Source of the DNA: Gemmatimonadaceae bacterium
GTDB taxonomy: Bacteria; Gemmatimonadota; Gemmatimonadetes; Gemmatimonadales; Gemmatimonadaceae
DNA length: 64,000 bases
Direction: 5' to 3'
Assembly: GCA_013697785.1 (NCBI GenBank)
Contig: JACCWE010000101.1
Location: 1-64,000, forward strand
Positions 27,085 through 36,436 of this stretch are shown here, piece after piece. The translations under genes and the position numbers were made by a program. Below the pieces are notes generated by a model. That model worked only from the letters and a program-made list of their open reading frames with translations. It searched no databases and was not told the origin of the DNA. Position 1 is the stretch's first letter, and the number at the start of each line of letters is the position of its first letter.

Positions 27085-27633
27085 TTGTCCCTGGAGCCCG
27101 TGACCGGGATCGAGATCAAACCCCTGAGCGCCTCGCCGAAGTTAAGCGAGGCGCTCGGTACGATGCTCATGGACGTCGTCGCGGGCGGCGGCTCGGTCGG
27201 TTTCATGCACCCGTTGTCGCCGGAACGTGCGAGAGCGTTCTGGGACGGCGTGCTCGCGGCAGCGGATCGCGGCGAGCGAATCGTGCTCGGCGCCTTCGAC
27301 GATGGCACCCTCGTGGCCACGGTATCGCTCATCCTCGATCTCCCACCGAACCAGCCGCACCGCGCCGAGATCGGAAAGATGATGACGCGCCCGAGCCACA
27401 GGGGGCGGGGAATCGCGAGCGCTTTGATGCGAAAAGCGGAGTCTCTGGCGATCGAGAAGGGTCGGACACTGCTGGTGCTCGACACTGCGGCCGACGAGGG
27501 CGCGCCGGAGTTCTACGAGCGACTTGGATATACGCTCACGGGAGAGATTCCGGACTACGCGCTGAAGCCGCTCGGAGGTCTGACGGCGACGAGGATCTAT
27601 TGGAAGCGGATTGGCGGCGCTACCCCTCGATAG
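27085..27633 (+). CDS. GNAT family N-acetyltransferase
   Basis: A 182-residue acetyl-CoA-dependent acyltransferase. The acetyl-CoA loop is clear: [16 protein letters not shown] (R/Q-x-x-G-x-G/A). Following are [21 protein letters not shown] and [13 protein letters not shown], typical of the GNAT C-terminal half. Acceptor unknown. The TTG directly abuts the upstream stop; a GTG five codons in, 3 nt after GGAG, is an alternative. Its end overlaps acs by 14 nt on the opposite strand. Confidence 0.85.
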
Positions 27634-29581
27634 ACTCGTACTGATCCTTCAGCGCCGCCACCACCGCCGGATCTGCGAGCGTGGTCGTATCCCCAAGCGC
27701 TCTCCCCTCCGCGATGTCGCGCAACAAACGTCGCATGATCTTCCCCGAGCGCGTCTTCGGTAGATCCGCGCTGAAGATGATGTCATCCGGCTTCGCGATC
27801 GCGCCGATCTTCGTTCCCACGTGATCGCGCAGCTCCGCGAGAAGCTCCGGCGTGGCATTGATCCCCTCGCGCAGCGTCACGAACGCGGCGATCGCCTGCC
27901 CCTTGAGATCGTGCGCTTTGCCCACCACCGCAGCCTCCGCCACCGCGTGATGATCGACCAGCGCCGACTCCACTTCCATCGTCCCGATGCGATGCCCCGC
28001 GACGTTGAGCACGTCGTCGACGCGCCCAAGAATCCAGAAGTTGCCATCTTCATCCCGCTTCGCGCCGTCTCCCGGAAAGTACAGATCAGGTCTACCCGGC
28101 CACTTCGAGAAGTACGTCTTCACGTAGCGCTCGTCGTCGCCCCAGATCGTGCGCAGCATCCCCGGCCACGGCTTCGTGATCGCTAGCAGTCCACCGCCAA
28201 CCTTGATCGGCTTCGCGTTGTCGTCGAGCAGCTCCGCGGTGATTCCCGGGAATGCCACCGTCGCACTACCCGGTGTCGTCTCGGTGATTCCCGGGAGCGG
28301 CGAGATCATGGTCGCCCCCGTCTCCGTCTGCCACCACGTGTCGACGATCGGGCACCGATTGCCGCCGATATTCTCGCGATACCACATCCACGCTTCGGGG
28401 TTGATCGGCTCACCCACCGATCCCAGCAGCCGTAGCTTCGAGAGATCGTGCTTCTCGGCGTGCTGCGCGCCCCACTTCATGAATGCGCGAATCGCCGTTG
28501 GCGCCGTGTAGAAAATGGTGACGCCGTACTTCTCGCACAGCGCCCAAAAACGGTCCTTCTCGGGCCAGTCGGGCGCGCCCTCGTACATCATGCATGTCGC
28601 GCCATTCGCGAGCGGCCCGTACACGATGTACGAGTGCCCCGTCACCCAGCCGACGTCCGCAGTGCACCAGTAGACGTCACTTTCTTTGAGATCGAAGATC
28701 ATGCGCGTCGTTACCGCGCACTGCGTGAGATAGCCGCCCGTGGTGTGCACGATCCCCTTCGGCTTTCCCGTCGTCCCCGACGTGTAGAGCGTGAAGAGAA
28801 TGTCTTCCGCATTCACCGCCGTCGGGGCTCGAGTCGGCGACGCCTTCGCCATGAGCTCGTGCCACCACTTGTCGCGCCCCGCCTTCATCGATGCCTCGGT
28901 GCCGCCGATCGGCTTCTCGGTGCGCCGCACGACCACCACGTGCTCGATCGTCGGCGTCTGCGCGACCGCGTCGTCCGCGTTCTTCTTGAGCGGCACGACC
29001 TGCCCGCGACGAAATCCTCCATCCGCCGTGATCAGCACCTTCGCCCCGGCGTCGACGATGCGATCGCGCAGCGACTCGGCCGAGAACCCGCCGAACACAA
29101 CCGAGTGCACGGCGCCCACGCGCGCGCACGCGAGCATCGCGATCGCTGCTTCGGGAATCATCGGCAAGTAGATCGACACGCGGTCACCCTTCTCCACGCC
29201 GAGCGAGTCGAGCACCGATGCGAAGCGACACACCTCGTCGAGCAGCTCCGCATACGTCAGCGTGCGCGTGTCGCCCGGCTCGCCCTCCCAGATGATCGCG
29301 GCCTTGTTGGCGCGCTCGCCGCGCGCATGGCGATCGACGCAGCTCACCGATGCATTGAGCTCGCCGTCCGCGAACCACTTCGACCGCGGCGGCGCCCACT
29401 CGAGCACCTTCGTGAACGGCTTCGACCACTCGAGCTCGCGAGCACACTCGGCCCAAAATCCCTCGTAGTCCTTCGCCGCGCGCTCGTAGATCTCGGCGCT
29501 GCGCACGTTCGCATTGCGCGCGAACGTCTCGGGCGGCTTGAACTTCCGGTGCTCTTCGAGCAGCACATCTATGTCGGTCAT
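27620..29581 (-). CDS. acs: Acetyl-CoA synthetase
   Basis: Activates acetate to acetyl-CoA through acetyl-AMP. At 653 residues it has the family length. Visible motifs are [13 protein letters not shown] (P-loop-like A3), WWQTETGA (A5) and [11 protein letters not shown] near the C-terminus, whose Lys is the usual acetylation switch, so post-translational control is possible. The N-terminal [13 protein letters not shown] region is also typical. The adjacent GNAT converges on it; some GNATs acetylate Acs, though this one has no regulatory domain to suggest that. Confidence 0.96.
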
Positions 29582-29697
29582 GCTCCATCCATTCGGTAGA
29601 CGACGAGAATATCTTAGCGGGCGGCCACGCGGATGCCAGCCGTGAGCCCGGAACTGCTCGTTGGCCCGCCAACGGTGCCAGTGCTACACTTTGATCC

Positions 29698-30642
29698 GTG
29701 ATCGACTCCCCCGACGCCCTCTCCGATCCCGAGTTCCAGCCGGATTACGACCCGGTGCATCGCTTCTCCGCGTGGCTGGAGCGCGGAGGGAAGGCCGACG
29801 CGACGGTGGAGGCTTATCACGCCGACGTCGCCGATCTCGTGCGCGCCTTCACCCCGCGGCCCACGATGGAGCTGCTGCCGTCCGACCTCTCCGACTATCT
29901 GCAGGCACGCGCGAGCTTCGAAGGATGGTCGGTGCCGACGGTGCGGCGGCACCTGCAGGCGATCAAATCCTTCTATCGGTACCTCGTCACCGAAGAGGAG
30001 ATTCGCGCCCCCGGCCCCGCGGAGCTGCTCGCGGAGCCCGTGCCGGAGCCGCGCGCGCCGCACATCATCGACCAATCGGATGTCGCCGCCATCTTCGGCT
30101 ATCTCGAGACGCGCCCGAAGACCGACCCCGCCGCTGCGATGGATCTCGCGCTCTACGGAATCGCCTATCACGGCGCGCTCCTCATCTCCGAGGCGATCGG
30201 CCTCACGCTCGACGCGGTTCGCGGAGGTCCGGCGGTGATCAAGCTCGACGTGATCGGCCGGCGCGGCGAGGAAAGCCAGCTCACGCTCGACGGCGATGCC
30301 GCATCCTGGATGGGCGCGTGGCTCGCGATCCGCCCGGCACCTGCGCGCGAGACCGACAAGCGCTTTGTCTTCATCCACCCACGCACGCGGCTGCATACAT
30401 CGCGTCAGCGCGCGTGGGACCGTCTCAAGCGCCTCGCGAAGGCCGCCGGACTCGATGAGGATGTGGCCGAGCGAATCACGCCGCACACGCTCCGCCACTC
30501 GTACGCGGCGCATCTCGCGTCGCGCGCACTGGACGTCCCGGCGCTCCGAGCCGCGCTGCGCCAGCGCTCTCCGCGCCACGCGAGCAAGTACATCGCGCGC
30601 GCCGAGCGAGAAGTGTCGCGCGACACCGCCACCGACACGTGA
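29698..30642 (+). CDS. XerD-like tyrosine recombinase family protein with degenerate active site
   Basis: A 314-residue protein with an N-terminal SAM-like core-binding domain (about 15-105) and a tyrosine-recombinase catalytic fold. The HxxR box is intact (H263, R266 in TPHTLRHS) and Y298 is present. The first catalytic Arg is replaced: GLRVSE is ALLISE (L162). The His/Trp nine residues before Tyr is Q289. So two of the usual RKHRHY residues are missing and strand cleavage may be lost or altered. It starts with GTG and its stop overlaps ccmA (GTGA), placing it inside a heme-export operon. Confidence 0.85.
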   Translation: MIDSPDALSDPEFQPDYDPVHRFSAWLERGGKADATVEAYHADVADLVRAFTPRPTMELLPSDLSDYLQARASFEGWSVPTVRRHLQAIKSFYRYLVTEEEIRAPGPAELLAEPVPEPRAPHIIDQSDVAAIFGYLETRPKTDPAAAMDLALYGIAYHGALLISEAIGLTLDAVRGGPAVIKLDVIGRRGEESQLTLDGDAASWMGAWLAIRPAPARETDKRFVFIHPRTRLHTSRQRAWDRLKRLAKAAGLDEDVAERITPHTLRHSYAAHLASRALDVPALRAALRQRSPRHASKYIARAEREVSRDTATDT

Positions 30643-31340
30643 TCGCGACACGAGCGCTCGGCCGCCGCTTCGGCGGTCGAACCGCGGTTCGCGACGTGAC
30701 GATCTCGCTCGGCGCCGGCGACGTGCTCGCGCTCTTCGGGCCCAACGGTGCGGGGAAGACGACGCTCCTCCGCATGCTCGCGGGACTTCTGCGTCCCACC
30801 GAAGGCTCCGCGACCGTGGCTGCGATAGCGCTCCCCGGCGGCGCGGAGCTGCGTGCCGCGATCGGCTACATCTCGCACGCGAGCATGCTCTACGGCGCGC
30901 TCACCGCCCGCGAGAACGTCGAGCTCGCAGCGAAGCTCTTCGGCGTGCGCGAGCCTCGCACCCAGGCCATGCGCGCACTCGAGCGCATGGAGTTGCGCGA
31001 TCGCGCCGAGACGCCGGTGCGCCTCCTCAGCCGCGGTATGCAGCAGCGCGTCTCGATCGCGCGCGCGACGGTGCACGAGCCGAGCGTGGTGCTTCTCGAC
31101 GAACCCTTCACCGGACTCGACGACTCCGGCAGCGCCGCGCTCGGCGCCCATCTCGCGATGCTCCGCGCTGCGGGCACCACGATGGTTCTCGTAACGCATC
31201 AGATCGCCGAGGGGCTCGCGCTGGCCACGCACGCGGCGATCATGCGCGAGGGCGAGCTCGTGCGAATCGATCAGGGAAGCGCGATCGATCCCTCGACCTA
31301 TCTCGGCGTCTACCGCGAGCACGTGACTCATGGCGCCTAG
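30639..31340 (+). CDS. ccmA: Heme exporter ATP-binding protein CcmA
   Basis: A 233-residue ABC ATPase. Walker A GPNGAGKTT, a signature region LLSRGMQQRVSIARA (the LSGGQ-like motif) and Walker B VVLLDEPFTGLD are all present, followed by VTHQ. With CcmB and CcmC it forms the complex that powers release of heme-loaded CcmE in cytochrome c maturation. It is coupled to the XerD-like gene upstream and overlaps ccmB by 11 nt. Confidence 0.9.
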   Translation: MIATRALGRRFGGRTAVRDVTISLGAGDVLALFGPNGAGKTTLLRMLAGLLRPTEGSATVAAIALPGGAELRAAIGYISHASMLYGALTARENVELAAKLFGVREPRTQAMRALERMELRDRAETPVRLLSRGMQQRVSIARATVHEPSVVLLDEPFTGLDDSGSAALGAHLAMLRAAGTTMVLVTHQIAEGLALATHAAIMREGELVRIDQGSAIDPSTYLGVYREHVTHGA

Positions 31341-32013
31341 CACCATCTCGGCGGCGCTGCTCATCGCGCGGAAGGACCTCGCGATAGAGTTCCGCACGCG
31401 AACAGCATTCTTCTCCGCCGCGATCTTCGCGCTGCTCGGCATCGTGATCTTCTACTTCGCCTGGGACCCCACCGCGGTCGCGCCCGTTGATCTCGCGCCG
31501 GGCGTGCTCTGGGGTATCTTCACTTTCTCGGGGCTCCTCGGACTGCAGCGCTCGTTCGGTATCGAGCAGGCCGATCGCGCGATCGACTCCCTCCTCGGCG
31601 CACCGATTCCGCGGGAGTCGATCTATCTCGGCAAGGCGATTGCAAATCTCGCTTTCGTCGTCGCCGTCCAGCTCATTGCGATTCCCGCTGTGCAACTGTT
31701 CTACGGCGTTCCGCTGCTCGAACACGCCGGCACGCTCGCGATCATCGCGCTGCTCGCGGCGATCGGGCTCGTTGCGGTTGGTACGCTGTTCAGCGCGATG
31801 GCGGTGAACACGAAGCTGGCCGAGATGCTGCTTCCGGTGCTCTCACTTCCGTTTTTCGTGCCCGTGGTGATCCCCGCGGCCCAGGCGACGGCCAGGCTTC
31901 TCGCCGGCCGACCCACGGATGAGCTGGTGGGTTGGCTTAAATTACTGATCGCTTTCGATATAGTGTTCGTGGCCGCGTGCACGCTCGCCTTTCCGTACAC
32001 CATCGAGGAATGA
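31330..32013 (+). CDS. ccmB: Heme exporter membrane protein CcmB
   Basis: A 227-residue protein with six hydrophobic segments and the CcmB opening (LLIARKDLAIEFRTRTAFFS), then FTFSGLLGLQRSFGIEQ, DSLLGAPIPRESIYLGK and LPFFVPVVIPAAQAT. It is the transmembrane subunit of the CcmAB ABC complex. It overlaps ccmA and ccmC (ATGA). Confidence 0.93.
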   Translation: MAPSTISAALLIARKDLAIEFRTRTAFFSAAIFALLGIVIFYFAWDPTAVAPVDLAPGVLWGIFTFSGLLGLQRSFGIEQADRAIDSLLGAPIPRESIYLGKAIANLAFVVAVQLIAIPAVQLFYGVPLLEHAGTLAIIALLAAIGLVAVGTLFSAMAVNTKLAEMLLPVLSLPFFVPVVIPAAQATARLLAGRPTDELVGWLKLLIAFDIVFVAACTLAFPYTIEE

Positions 32014-32729
32014 ACAGTCCCGCTTCAGCGACACCCGCGTACGACGCAACGCCGCCGAAGAGCGCCGGCGGCATCGACTGGCTCTTTCTCATCGCTGTGC
32101 TCGCGATCGCGGCGGCGCTCGCGCGTGTGATCTACTACACGCCCTTCGAGGCGGTGCAGGGGCCGGCGCAGAAGATCTTCTATCTGCATCTCCCTGCCGC
32201 GCTGTGCGCATTCATGGCATTCGGCGTCGTCGCGCTCGCCGGGATCGGCCACCTCTGGCTCGGTGATCTGCGCCTCGATCGCGCGGCCGAGAGCTCGGCC
32301 GAGGTCGGCGTGATCTTCACGACCGTCGTCCTGATCACGGGGCCGCTGTGGGCGCGGCCGGTGTGGGGCACGTGGTGGACGTGGGACGCGCGCCTCACCC
32401 TGACGCTCTTTCTCTGGTTCATCTACGTCGGCTACCTCGTGCTGCGCGGCGCGATCGACGACCGCGCCCTGCGCGCGCGCTATTCGGCCGTGCTCGGAAT
32501 TCTCGGCTCGCTGCTGATTCCGTTCATCCACCTCAGCGTCTATCTCTTCCGCACGCTGCACCCGCGGCCGATCGTGATCAAGCCAAGTGCGCCATCGTTG
32601 CCACCGGAGATGCTGACGACGCTGATCATCTCGTTCGTCGCCTTTACGCTCTTCTACATCGCGCTCGTGCGCCAGCGCTATCGCCTGGCGGCCGAGAGGG
32701 ATCTGCTCGAGCTCGAGGAGGGCCGTTGA
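32010..32729 (+). CDS. ccmC: Heme handling protein CcmC (HHP family)
   Basis: A 239-residue protein with six transmembrane helices and the tryptophan-rich WGTWWTWDARLT motif that holds heme for transfer to CcmE. Flanking heme-ligand His residues are in IFYLHLPAAL and FIHLSVYLFRTLHP. The Trp motif sits between helices 3 and 4. It starts inside the ccmB stop and its own TGA overlaps the ccmD ATG by one base. Confidence 0.93.
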   Translation: MNSPASATPAYDATPPKSAGGIDWLFLIAVLAIAAALARVIYYTPFEAVQGPAQKIFYLHLPAALCAFMAFGVVALAGIGHLWLGDLRLDRAAESSAEVGVIFTTVVLITGPLWARPVWGTWWTWDARLTLTLFLWFIYVGYLVLRGAIDDRALRARYSAVLGILGSLLIPFIHLSVYLFRTLHPRPIVIKPSAPSLPPEMLTTLIISFVAFTLFYIALVRQRYRLAAERDLLELEEGR

Positions 32730-32863
32730 TGCCGCACAACGAGAGCTACTACTACGCCGCGTACTTCGCGGCGATGAGCATCTACCTGCTCTACACGATC
32801 AGCGTGATGCGCCGGCGGTTGAGCGTCGCGAAGCGGCGGCTTGCGCTGCGCCGCGAGCGCTGA
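32729..32863 (+). CDS. ccmD: CcmD-like small membrane protein
   Basis: A 44-residue peptide with one transmembrane helix (YYAAYFAAMSIYLLYTISVM) and a strongly basic C-terminus. Size, topology and position right after ccmC fit CcmD, which stabilises the CcmABC complex and helps release holo-CcmE. The assignment depends mainly on context because CcmD is poorly conserved. No ccmE, ccmF, ccmG or ccmH follows in this window. Confidence 0.75.
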   Translation: MPHNESYYYAAYFAAMSIYLLYTISVMRRRLSVAKRRLALRRER

Positions 32864-32894: not shown

Positions 32895-34415
32895 GTGAGC
32901 ACCGGCCTGGTGTATCTCGTCGGCGCCGGCCCCGGCGATCCCGGGCTTCTCACCGTGCGCGGGCGCGAGCTGCTCGCCTCGTGCGACACGATCGTCTACG
33001 ACGCGCTCGTGAATCCGGTGCTCGTCGACGACGCGTGGATCGGGCGCGCGAGCGAGGCCGAGCGGATCTTCGTCGGAAAGCGCGGGGGTGCGCCGTCGAT
33101 GGAGCAGGACGCGATCACCGCGTTGCTCCTTCAGCTCGCGCGCGACGGAAAGAACGTCGTGCGACTCAAGGGCGGCGACCCGATGGTGTTCGGCCGCGGC
33201 GGCGAAGAGGCGATCGCGCTCGCTGCTGCGGGGCTCGCGTTCGAAGTAGTCCCCGGAATCACCGCGGGCGTCGCTGCACCTGCCTACGCGGGAATTCCGG
33301 TCACGCATCGCGGAGTCTCGACGTCGGTCACCTTCATCACCGGCCACGAGGATCCGGGGAAGGATCGCGATCAGACCGACTGGTCCGCTCTCGCGCGCGC
33401 CGGCGGGACGCTCGTGCTCTACATGGGCGTGAGCCGCCTCGCGAAAATCGCTGCTGCGCTGATCGCCGGCGGACGCTCGCCCGAAACGCCGACGGCGATC
33501 ATCGAGTGGGGCACCTATCCGCGCCAGCGCACGGTCACCGCCACGCTCGCGACGCTCGCCGAGCGCGCGGCGCAGGAGAAGGTCATCGCACCGTCGATCG
33601 CGATCGTGGGCGACGTCGTGAAGCTGCGCGCCGAGATGAGCTGGTTCGACAGGCGCCCTCTCTTCGGCCGCACCATCGTCGTCACGCGCGCGCGCGAGCA
33701 GGCGTCGCAGCTTCGTTCCGCGCTCGAGATCGCGGGCGCCACCGTCATCGAGGCGCCGGCGATTCGCATCGAGCCGCTCGACCAGGCGCCCCTCCGCGCC
33801 GCGCTCGGCCAACTCCCAATGTACAAATGGCTCGTCGTCACCAGCCGCAACGCGGTCGATCTCCTCTGGGCAGCGCTCCGCGAGCTCGGCCTCGACGCGC
33901 GCGTATTCGCGACGATCAAGCTCTGCGCGGTCGGCCCCGCCACCGCGGATGCATTGCTCGCGCACGGGCTCGCGGTGGACGTCATCCCCGACCGATACGT
34001 GGCCGAGGGCGTGATCGAGACGCTGCGCGAGCGCAGCGATATCCGCGGGGCGCGCGTGCTCTTCGCGCGCGCGGCCGGTGCGCGGGAGCTCCTTCCCACC
34101 GCGCTCCGCGAGATGGGCGCGGCCGTCGACGAGATCGAGATCTATCGCGCCGTTCCCGACCTCTCCGGGCTGGACACGCTCGTCGAGGCACTCGACGAGA
34201 ACACCGTAGACCTCGTCACCTTCACCTCCGCCTCCACCATCCGCCACTTCGTCGACGCGCTTGGACCCGATCGCGCCCGCACCGTTCGCGGCGCGTCGAT
34301 CGGTCCCGTCACCAGCGATGCCGCGCGCGCTCTCGGCGTTCCCGTCGAGATCGAGGCCGCCGAGTCGACGATCGCGTCGCTCGTGCAGGCGATAACGACC
34401 CACCTCGCGCGCTAG
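32895..34415 (+). CDS. cobA-hemD: Fused uroporphyrinogen-III C-methyltransferase / uroporphyrinogen-III synthase
   Basis: A 506-residue two-domain enzyme. Residues 1-245 are SUMT: LVGAGPGDPGLLTVRG, VVRLKGGDPMVFGRGGEE and GITAGVAAPAYAGIPVTHRG, which methylate uroporphyrinogen III at C2 and C7. Residues 260-500 are HemD: FGRTIVVTRAREQASQL, WLVVTSRNAVDLLW, LCAVGPATADAL and VTFTSASTIRHFVDAL, which close hydroxymethylbilane to uroporphyrinogen III. Such fusions are known in several phyla. The GTG has GAAGG 5 nt upstream. It lies 32 nt before hemC, so HemC product passes directly to HemD. Confidence 0.95.
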   Translation: MSTGLVYLVGAGPGDPGLLTVRGRELLASCDTIVYDALVNPVLVDDAWIGRASEAERIFVGKRGGAPSMEQDAITALLLQLARDGKNVVRLKGGDPMVFGRGGEEAIALAAAGLAFEVVPGITAGVAAPAYAGIPVTHRGVSTSVTFITGHEDPGKDRDQTDWSALARAGGTLVLYMGVSRLAKIAAALIAGGRSPETPTAIIEWGTYPRQRTVTATLATLAERAAQEKVIAPSIAIVGDVVKLRAEMSWFDRRPLFGRTIVVTRAREQASQLRSALEIAGATVIEAPAIRIEPLDQAPLRAALGQLPMYKWLVVTSRNAVDLLWAALRELGLDARVFATIKLCAVGPATADALLAHGLAVDVIPDRYVAEGVIETLRERSDIRGARVLFARAAGARELLPTALREMGAAVDEIEIYRAVPDLSGLDTLVEALDENTVDLVTFTSASTIRHFVDALGPDRARTVRGASIGPVTSDAARALGVPVEIEAAESTIASLVQAITTHLAR

Positions 34416-34447: not shown

Positions 34448-35407
34448 ATGACCGCCACCGTCCGAATCGCGACGCGCGCCTCCGAGCTCGCGCTTCGGCA
34501 GGCGCGTATGGTTCAGGCGGCGCTCGAGGTTGCGGGCACGTCGTCCGAGCTCGTCACCTTCAAAACGGTCGGCGACAAGAAGCTCGATGAATCGCTCAGT
34601 GCGATCGGTGCGAAGGGGCTCTTCACGAAGGAGCTCGAGGATGCGCTCTCGGCCGGCAAGGTCGATTGCTGCGTGCACTCGCTCAAGGATCTGCCCACCG
34701 ACATGCCCGCCGGGCTCGCGCTCATCGCGATGCTGGAGCGCGAAGATCCGCGCGATGTGCTCGTCGTCAACGACGGCATCTTCGCCGAATCGCTGGAGGA
34801 TCTGCCGCGCGGCAGCCGCGTCGGCACGTCCAGTCTGCGCCGCCGCGCGCAGCTGCTGCATCGCCGCTCCGATCTCGAGGTCGTCGAGCTCCGCGGCAAT
34901 GTGCCCACGCGGCTCCGCAAGATCGACGAGGGGCAGGTGCACGCGGCGATTCTCGCTGGCGCGGGGCTCATCCGTCTCGAGAGCGAGCAGCGCATCGACG
35001 CGTGGCTCGACGCGCCGGAGTGGCTACCCGCAGCGGGGCAGGGCGTGATTGCGGTTGAAGCGCGCGACGGTGACGATCGCATGCGAGAGCTGCTCGCGTC
35101 GATCCATCACAGGCCGAGCGCCTTCGCAGCGACGGCTGAGCGCTCGCTCCTCGCGGCGCTCGACGGCGGATGTCAGGTGCCGATCGGCGCACTGCTGATC
35201 GGCGAGGGCGCGGGCGCGGTGCTCCACGCGCTCGTGAGTGATCTGCATGGCAAGCAGATGTTGCGCGGCTCGCTCGCGGTCGGCATGCAATCCGCAGAGG
35301 AAGTTGGCGCGGCGCTCGCAGCAACCATGCGCCGCGACGGCGCGACTGAAATCCTCGCCGCCGTGCGAGCCGACTCGGCCAAAATTCCCTCGCCGCAGCC
35401 CGAATGA
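34448..35407 (+). CDS. hemC: Porphobilinogen deaminase (hydroxymethylbilane synthase)
   Basis: A 319-residue enzyme that joins four porphobilinogens to hydroxymethylbilane. Markers: ATRASELALRQA, VHSLKDLPTDMP, GTSSLRRRAQLL, LPAAGQGVIAVE, and GGCQVPIGA whose Cys holds the dipyrromethane cofactor. Length matches the family. It follows the fused cobA-hemD gene and precedes hemB after a 54-bp gap. Confidence 0.96.
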   Translation: MTATVRIATRASELALRQARMVQAALEVAGTSSELVTFKTVGDKKLDESLSAIGAKGLFTKELEDALSAGKVDCCVHSLKDLPTDMPAGLALIAMLEREDPRDVLVVNDGIFAESLEDLPRGSRVGTSSLRRRAQLLHRRSDLEVVELRGNVPTRLRKIDEGQVHAAILAGAGLIRLESEQRIDAWLDAPEWLPAAGQGVIAVEARDGDDRMRELLASIHHRPSAFAATAERSLLAALDGGCQVPIGALLIGEGAGAVLHALVSDLHGKQMLRGSLAVGMQSAEEVGAALAATMRRDGATEILAAVRADSAKIPSPQPE

Positions 35408-35461: not shown

Positions 35462-36436
35462 ATGCCATCGTTCCCCGACTATCGCCCTCGCCGCCTCCGC
35501 CGCACCGAGCCGCTCCGCAAGCTGGTTCAGGAGACGCATCTCACCGCGTCGCAGCTGGTGCTCCCGCTTTTCGTGCGCTCGGGATCCAACGTGCGCAAAG
35601 CCGTCGGCTCGATGCCGGGCGTCTTCCAGCTCTCCATCGACGAGATCCTTGGCGAAGCTGACGAGGCATCCGAACAAGGAGTTGGTGGCGTCATCCTCTT
35701 CGGCCTCCCCGACAGCAAGGACGCGACCGGCTCCTCGGCGTGGGATGAGAAGGGGCCGGTGCCGACTGCCGTGCGCGCACTCAAGCAGGAATTTCCGCAG
35801 CTCGTCGTGGTCACCGACGTCTGCATGTGTGAATACACGGATCACGGCCACTGCGGCATTCTTCGCGACGGCGAAGTCGACAACGATGCGACGCTCGAGC
35901 TCCTCTCTCGCGCCGCGGTCGTGCACGCTGCCGCCGGCGCCGACATCGTCGCGCCGAGCGACATGATGGATGGCCGCGTCGGTGCGATCCGCCGAGCGCT
36001 CGATGAGCAGAAGCTCGTGAACACCGCGATTCTCGCTTACGCCGCGAAGTATGCGTCGGCGTTCTACGGGCCATTTCGCGAGGCGGCCGAGTCGACGCCG
36101 CAGTCAGGTGATCGGCGCGGCTATCAGATGGATGCGGCGAACTCGAACGAAGCGATGCGCGAAGTGTGGCTCGACATCGAGGAGGGAGCGGACGCGATCA
36201 TGGTGAAACCCGCCGGCCCATATCTGGACATCGTCGCGCGTGTGAAACAGGAGACGGGCTATCCAGTCGCTGCCTATCAGGTGAGTGGGGAGTACGCTAT
36301 GCTTCTTGCAGCAGCCGAGCGTGGCTGGATCGATCGCGAGCGTGCGATGCTCGAGTCGCTCATGGGCATTCGGCGCGCCGGCGCGGACTTCATTCTCACT
36401 TACTTCGCGACCGAGACGGCCCGACTCCTGTCATGA
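35462..36436 (+). CDS. hemB: Delta-aminolevulinic acid dehydratase (porphobilinogen synthase)
   Basis: A 324-residue enzyme that condenses two ALA molecules to porphobilinogen. The catalytic zinc cysteines are present in VCMCEYTDHGHCG (three Cys), so this is the zinc-dependent type. Active-site lysines lie in AYAAKYASAFYGP and IMVKPAGPYLD. It opens with YRPRRLRRTEPLRKLV. It has no close Shine-Dalgarno. Its stop overlaps the AKR start (ATGA). No hemA or hemL is seen here. Confidence 0.97.
   Translation: MPSFPDYRPRRLRRTEPLRKLVQETHLTASQLVLPLFVRSGSNVRKAVGSMPGVFQLSIDEILGEADEASEQGVGGVILFGLPDSKDATGSSAWDEKGPVPTAVRALKQEFPQLVVVTDVCMCEYTDHGHCGILRDGEVDNDATLELLSRAAVVHAAAGADIVAPSDMMDGRVGAIRRALDEQKLVNTAILAYAAKYASAFYGPFREAAESTPQSGDRRGYQMDAANSNEAMREVWLDIEEGADAIMVKPAGPYLDIVARVKQETGYPVAAYQVSGEYAMLLAAAERGWIDRERAMLESLMGIRRAGADFILTYFATETARLLS

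Follow-up and report, generated by a model that had tools for sequence, protein, structure and literature searches.

XerL, an Xer-family tyrosine recombinase with a degenerate active site encoded at the acs/heme locus of Gemmatimonadaceae

Phage repressors derived from the tyrosine-recombinase fold are already known. In MrpR (YopR), the repressor of Bacillus phage SPbeta, the integrase fold is retained, most of the catalytic residues are gone and the tyrosine is kept; MrpR showed no recombination, its tyrosine matters for DNA binding, and it represses transcription (PMC10516654). A second point of reference is XerH, in which the C-terminal helix inserts into the adjoining subunit, and for which the mutant R213K, altered at the first catalytic arginine, is used as the catalytic-mutant control (PMC5241119).

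Here, we describe a chromosomal Xer relative, which we have labelled XerL, in a window (the whole stretch of 64,000 nucleotides analysed) from a Gemmatimonadaceae draft genome; the named records that match closely are metagenome-assembled genomes of Gemmatimonadaceae and Gemmatimonadetes. The gene and its neighbours are listed in Table 1. A search of the open-access literature found no description of it. The reading towards which we lean, tentatively, is that XerL is a catalytically dead Xer paralog that has become a DNA-binding protein, probably a regulator.

Table 1. Features of the acs/XerL/ccm/heme locus, in window coordinates
Feature	Position	Strand	Remarks
acs, acetyl-CoA synthetase, divergent neighbour	27620..29581	-	PF16177, PF00501, PF13193
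AGTGCTACACTTT, directly upstream of XerL start	29680..29692	+	identical in 4/4 g1 genomes aligned
XerL, degenerate Xer-family tyrosine recombinase	29698..30642	+	GTG start, 314 aa ORF
ccmA, heme ABC exporter ATPase	30639..31340	+	TIGR01189 142.5 bits vs cut-off 131.6; GTG start
ccmB	31330..32013	+	PF03379 over cut-off; NCBIfam cut-off not passed
ccmC	32010..32729	+	PF01578 over cut-off; TIGR01191 best but below cut-off
ccmD candidate, 44 aa	32729..32863	+	called by position and length; matches no family
cobA/hemD fusion (uroporphyrinogen methylase + HemD)	32895..34415	+	PF00590, PF02602
hemC	34448..35407	+	called from its translation; relatives 60-85% identical at same place
hemB	35462..36436	+	PF00490

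Active site of XerL and the resident Xer system

XerL exceeds the Pfam cut-offs for Phage_integrase and for Phage_int_SAM, the SAM-like N-terminal domain, and falls below all of the NCBIfam Xer cut-offs. It scores 115 bits with the XerD model, for which 329.6 are required, 95 bits with XerC and 119 with PRK00283, for which 279 are needed; the genome's own XerD passes the XerD model with 352. The best solved relative by sequence is Escherichia coli XerD, and a sequence profile search of the PDB (E 0.01) retrieved XerD, XerA, IntI4, an archaeal XerC-like protein and a chain named RaiA, with neither 8A0A nor 9rd5 among them. The RaiA chain (PDB 9i5v chain 14, 401 residues) aligns with Xer recombinases from about residue 8 to 296, and is apparently either misnamed or a fusion of Xer to RaiA. 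The NCBIfam entry PRK02436, 'XerD', we take to represent a streptococcal inactive XerD-like protein without active-site residues; XerL gave no match to it (NF002685) up to E 0.001, and the genome's true XerD did match.

Alignment with the genome's own XerD and XerC places Leu162 of XerL under the catalytic arginine of GLRVSE, Arg188 in the position of the β-hairpin lysine (GKG) and Gln289 under the histidine of LGH, so that the RKHRHY active site of functional Xer recombinases is broken at R, K and H. Ser193 stands where KER usually has a basic residue. His263, Arg266 and Tyr298 match their counterparts in XerD and XerC, with the motif HTLRH beginning at 263. Among 44 comparison tyrosine recombinases, R162, K188 and H289 were each found in 44/44, the XerL orthologs in the same alignment having L, R and Q in 6/6; the comparison proteins were mostly fetched with patterns over KERxVPxG or HxLRHxFA, which partly preselects the columns of Lys, H263 and R266 and leaves those of R162 and H289 unselected. 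All three replacements are fixed in the eight full-length XerL orthologs, which also keep H263 and R266, and Y298 is present in 9/9. The ninth gene, split over two contigs in G120, has Leu162, Gln289 and Tyr298 in its covered parts. The losses are therefore not a matter of chance. A pseudogene or a sequencing error is likewise out, given nine genomes in separate assemblies, eight full open frames and a dN/dS near 0.1.

The first-pass annotation had recognised a degenerate XerD-like gene overlapping ccmA by the four bases GTGA, with Leu162 for the first arginine, Gln289 nine residues before Tyr298, and HxxR and the tyrosine kept. The ORF coordinates, which put the XerL stop codon on the GTG start of ccmA, and the alignment bear this out, except that its list of active-site changes was incomplete, omitting the lysine loss (R188) and S193. 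The canonical RKHRHY set that it named as the contrary outcome was not found in the eight full-length orthologs. Its further proposal, a tyrosine recombinase without strand exchange, is well supported: every ortholog has replacements at three of the six active-site positions, selection on the gene is purifying, and the genome has a full XerC/XerD/dif system besides.

That system, which the annotation had suggested looking for, comprises an intact-motif XerD on contig C129 and an intact-motif XerC on C63, so that XerL is not the genome's only Xer copy. A dif site, GTATAAGATACATTATGTAAA, lies at G000:C129:58088, on the same contig as xerD and a different one from XerL. A dif 21-mer with at most three mismatches was found in 7 of 13 relatives, the reversed control giving 0; the pattern search that located the site does not by itself establish dif (9 matches in the reversed control against 4), and the case rests on those relatives. 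Five further integrase-family matches, besides XerL, XerC and XerD, are present in the genome (G000:C39, C42, C84, C108 and C19), one of them with an internal stop.

Could XerL modulate the cell's own Xer system, occupying a dif half-site or pairing with XerC or XerD, and so tune dimer resolution without cutting? The XerD-type character of its scores and the occurrence of both XerC and XerD in six of the nine XerL genomes accord with this. We nevertheless judge it improbable: only XerD was found in G003, only XerC in G006 and neither in G120 (drafts, 68-91% complete), no dif-like site was found near XerL, the gene stays with acs and the heme genes, and XerL has no conserved counterpart of the C-terminal segment that XerH inserts into the adjoining subunit (PMC5241119).

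Constraint, predicted fold and the C-terminus

By the NG86 method, dN/dS for XerL is 0.113-0.141 in four g1 pairs and 0.100 in the g40 pair, reaching 0.20-0.27 between genera. The corresponding values are 0.032-0.060 for XerD over the same five pairs and 0.074-0.249 for ccmA over the four g1 pairs. XerL thus behaves as a protein under ordinary constraint, looser than that on XerD.

An AlphaFold2 model built on 50 alignment rows (pLDDT 92.3, pTM 0.79) predicts a complete tyrosine-recombinase fold with a core-binding and a catalytic domain. Its top fold match is DNA-bound XerH (5jjv; Z 20.8, 3.6 Å over 291 residues), and the best structure matches listed are to XerH, XerA, Cre, and integron and transposon integrases. 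The phage repressor SroF on DNA (9rd5) stands lower among the matches listed (Z 15.4, 6.2 Å over 267 residues), and the absence of 8A0A from the best 50 structure matches listed is no evidence either way.

In this fold family, αB, αD and the αJ region are the helices lying against the DNA. Invariant positions among the XerL orthologs are dense in αA, αB (12/18), αD (12/20), the αJ region (11/17) and the active-site boxes, and thin in αC (3/15) and αF (1/12). The N-terminal domain is net acidic, with 11 Lys and Arg against 18 Asp and Glu, and neither a helix-turn-helix nor a ligand-binding domain was found in XerL with Pfam.

The segment following the tyrosine is 3-16 residues long, with 0/16 positions invariant at 299-314, and the G122 and G129 proteins stop three residues past the tyrosine. 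The genome's own XerD has 19 residues in this segment, ending HPRG. Since it is the C-terminal helix that reaches the next subunit in XerH, whereas the XerL tail is short and variable, XerL is unlikely to build a cyclic recombination tetramer.

Distribution, linkage and descent

XerL is present in 9/179 genomes of the family, 9/288 of the order and, in a phylum-wide draw, 6/395, from the same genera only; it is limited to four genera of soil bacteria, all within Gemmatimonadaceae. A congener of the XerL-bearing genera, G002, showed no XerL, which in a genome 68% complete proves nothing. In g1, g3 and G122, XerL is the first gene of a ccm/heme operon divergent from acs. It adjoins ccmA, between that gene and acs, in seven of the nine genomes, and the stop/start overlap is kept in six of these seven.

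The other two genomes, G129 and G130 of g40, carry their ccm genes on other contigs, with 35-43% identity to those of the window. There, XerL directly precedes cobA/hemD, which it overlaps by stop/start in G129, and it remains beside acs and cobA/hemD-hemC-hemB under equal purifying selection. A loss of ccm in g40 is ruled out, CcmB being present elsewhere in both genomes. Two other features of this group were noted. The interval between acs and XerL holds two genes codirectional with XerL, one with a STAS domain and the other for a single-domain response regulator (L085:2403-3571 in G129, L086:9010-10026 in G130; families tested in G130); an ORF that reads as STAS-like is also found upstream of ccmA in the XerL-less G132. 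Between cobA/hemD and hemC lies a gene resembling the siroheme decarboxylase NirDL (L086:3628-4764 in G130, L085:7011-8150 in G129; domains tested in G130), which suggests an alternative heme route in g40.

Upstream of XerL, a consensus scan found no sigma-70 promoter. The element AGTGCTACACTTT may be read as the -10 element of a leaderless transcript, and on this reading of the sequence the operon mRNA looks leaderless. Within positions 29659-29697, a conserved TACACT is followed by seven bases and then the XerL start codon; TACTGT occupies the corresponding place in g39 relatives. No conserved operator-like repeat was found upstream of XerL, and the window's sole perfect inverted repeat (29659-29674) is not conserved among congeners.

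Four close g39 relatives (G121, G123, G124 and G125) have ccmA directly after acs, without XerL. As these four keep a similar acs-ccmA promoter junction, the operon evidently runs without XerL. The gene was also missing from ten further ccmA loci fetched from the family, so that, outside the genomes with XerL, ccmABC stands without the gene at 14/14 ccmA loci fetched from relatives.

These arrangements bear on two alternatives. One is that XerL is a passenger: a one-time integrase left behind in the operon and retained mainly because translation of the gene after it is coupled to it. It does overlap by stop/start with whichever gene comes next, ccmA in most genomes and cobA in G129, and it is absent without trace in one g39 subclade. 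The strong conservation of internal helices and a dN/dS of 0.10-0.14 speak against this, coupling requiring only an open frame, and we regard the passenger explanation as unlikely. Still less likely is a dedicated role in heme export, with XerL as a partner or regulator working together with CcmABCD, as the adjacency to ccmA and the retained overlap might suggest. G129 and G130, in which the gene is constrained just as strongly away from ccm, and the 14 loci where ccmABC does without it tell against such a partnership, and strict CcmABCD coupling as a rule is refuted by the former. Coupling to ccm is not essential, and since XerL stays at the acs/heme locus in G129 and G130 without ccm, it is with this locus, rather than with heme export, that the association is stable. 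The coupling to ccmABCD proposed in the first-pass annotation accordingly survives as an adjacency in most genomes and fails in these two, where the conserved linkage is that to acs and the heme genes.

A recent mobile-element integrase is unsupported: among the phage and plasmid places listed, the best show 24-30% identity, and several are annotated xerD or xerC. Mapped onto the Acs tree, the presence of XerL takes two changes, for instance a single gain with a loss inside g39, a pattern that fits vertical descent. The XerL stem measures 5.7 changes per site, with no firm placement next to XerD.

Possible role of XerL and comparison with known systems

A further alternative is that XerL carries out a reduced tyrosine chemistry (nicking, topoisomerase-like cleavage or rejoining) through H263, R266 and Y298. 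The invariance of the three residues favours such a reaction, but the first arginine, the lysine and the last histidine have been lost together, and type IB topoisomerases also use the arginine and the lysine. MrpR, too, keeps its tyrosine, for a non-catalytic reason (PMC10516654). We consider this alternative quite improbable.

We therefore return to XerL as a DNA-binding protein descended from a recombinase. A Xer paralog of XerD type would have lost its strand-exchange chemistry, most simply once, in the common ancestor of the four Gemmatimonadaceae genera, and would have been kept for binding DNA, its two-domain fold presumably clamping a specific site without cutting. Regulation of transcription is the most likely function of such a protein, and the first candidate target would be the promoter region between acs and the XerL-ccm-hem genes. 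In favour of the DNA-binding reading are the shared residue losses, the purifying selection, the predicted fold with its matches to XerH and SroF on DNA, the invariant positions in the helices that face DNA, the short tail, the intact resident Xer system and the MrpR precedent. It is possible, though a more doubtful proposition than DNA binding as such, that XerL is a chromosomal Xer-derived transcription factor over a divergent locus for acetate activation, heme synthesis and cytochrome c maturation, and by analogy a cellular counterpart of MrpR and SroF. Simple autoregulation is weighed against by the lack of a conserved operator-like repeat and by the promoter junction shared with XerL-less relatives. 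The invariant H263 and R266 exceed the needs of a pure DNA-binder, and the net acidic N-terminal domain and the lack of a helix-turn-helix or ligand-binding domain in the Pfam search also count against the DNA-binding reading. The DNA-binding or structural role suggested in the earlier annotation is nevertheless plausible and in line with the phage precedents.

With its three losses and its retained H263, R266 and Y298, XerL would on this reading be a new, clade-restricted chromosomal example, derived from Xer, of a kind previously represented by phage repressors. Apparently vertically inherited, and lying beside intact XerC, XerD and dif, it would offer a test case outside phages, with the loss of catalysis assigned to a single stem branch. 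It also serves as a warning that a family-based 'XerD' annotation does not establish that a protein is a recombinase.

XerL shares with XerD and XerC the two-domain fold, the sequence family, HxxR and the tyrosine. It differs from them in the replaced arginine, lysine and last histidine, in having no conserved C-terminal tail and in scoring below the NCBIfam cut-offs, while a separate, intact pair handles dif. MrpR belongs to a phage, has proven DNA targets, retains the lysine and has lost HxxR (PMC10516654), whereas XerL is chromosomal and keeps HxxR. SroF, the repressor of phage phi3T by the titles of PDB entries 9rd5 and 9rgl, resembles XerL in fold, the match given above being to its DNA-bound form; by the same titles, SroF differs in being a phage protein paired with an antirepressor.
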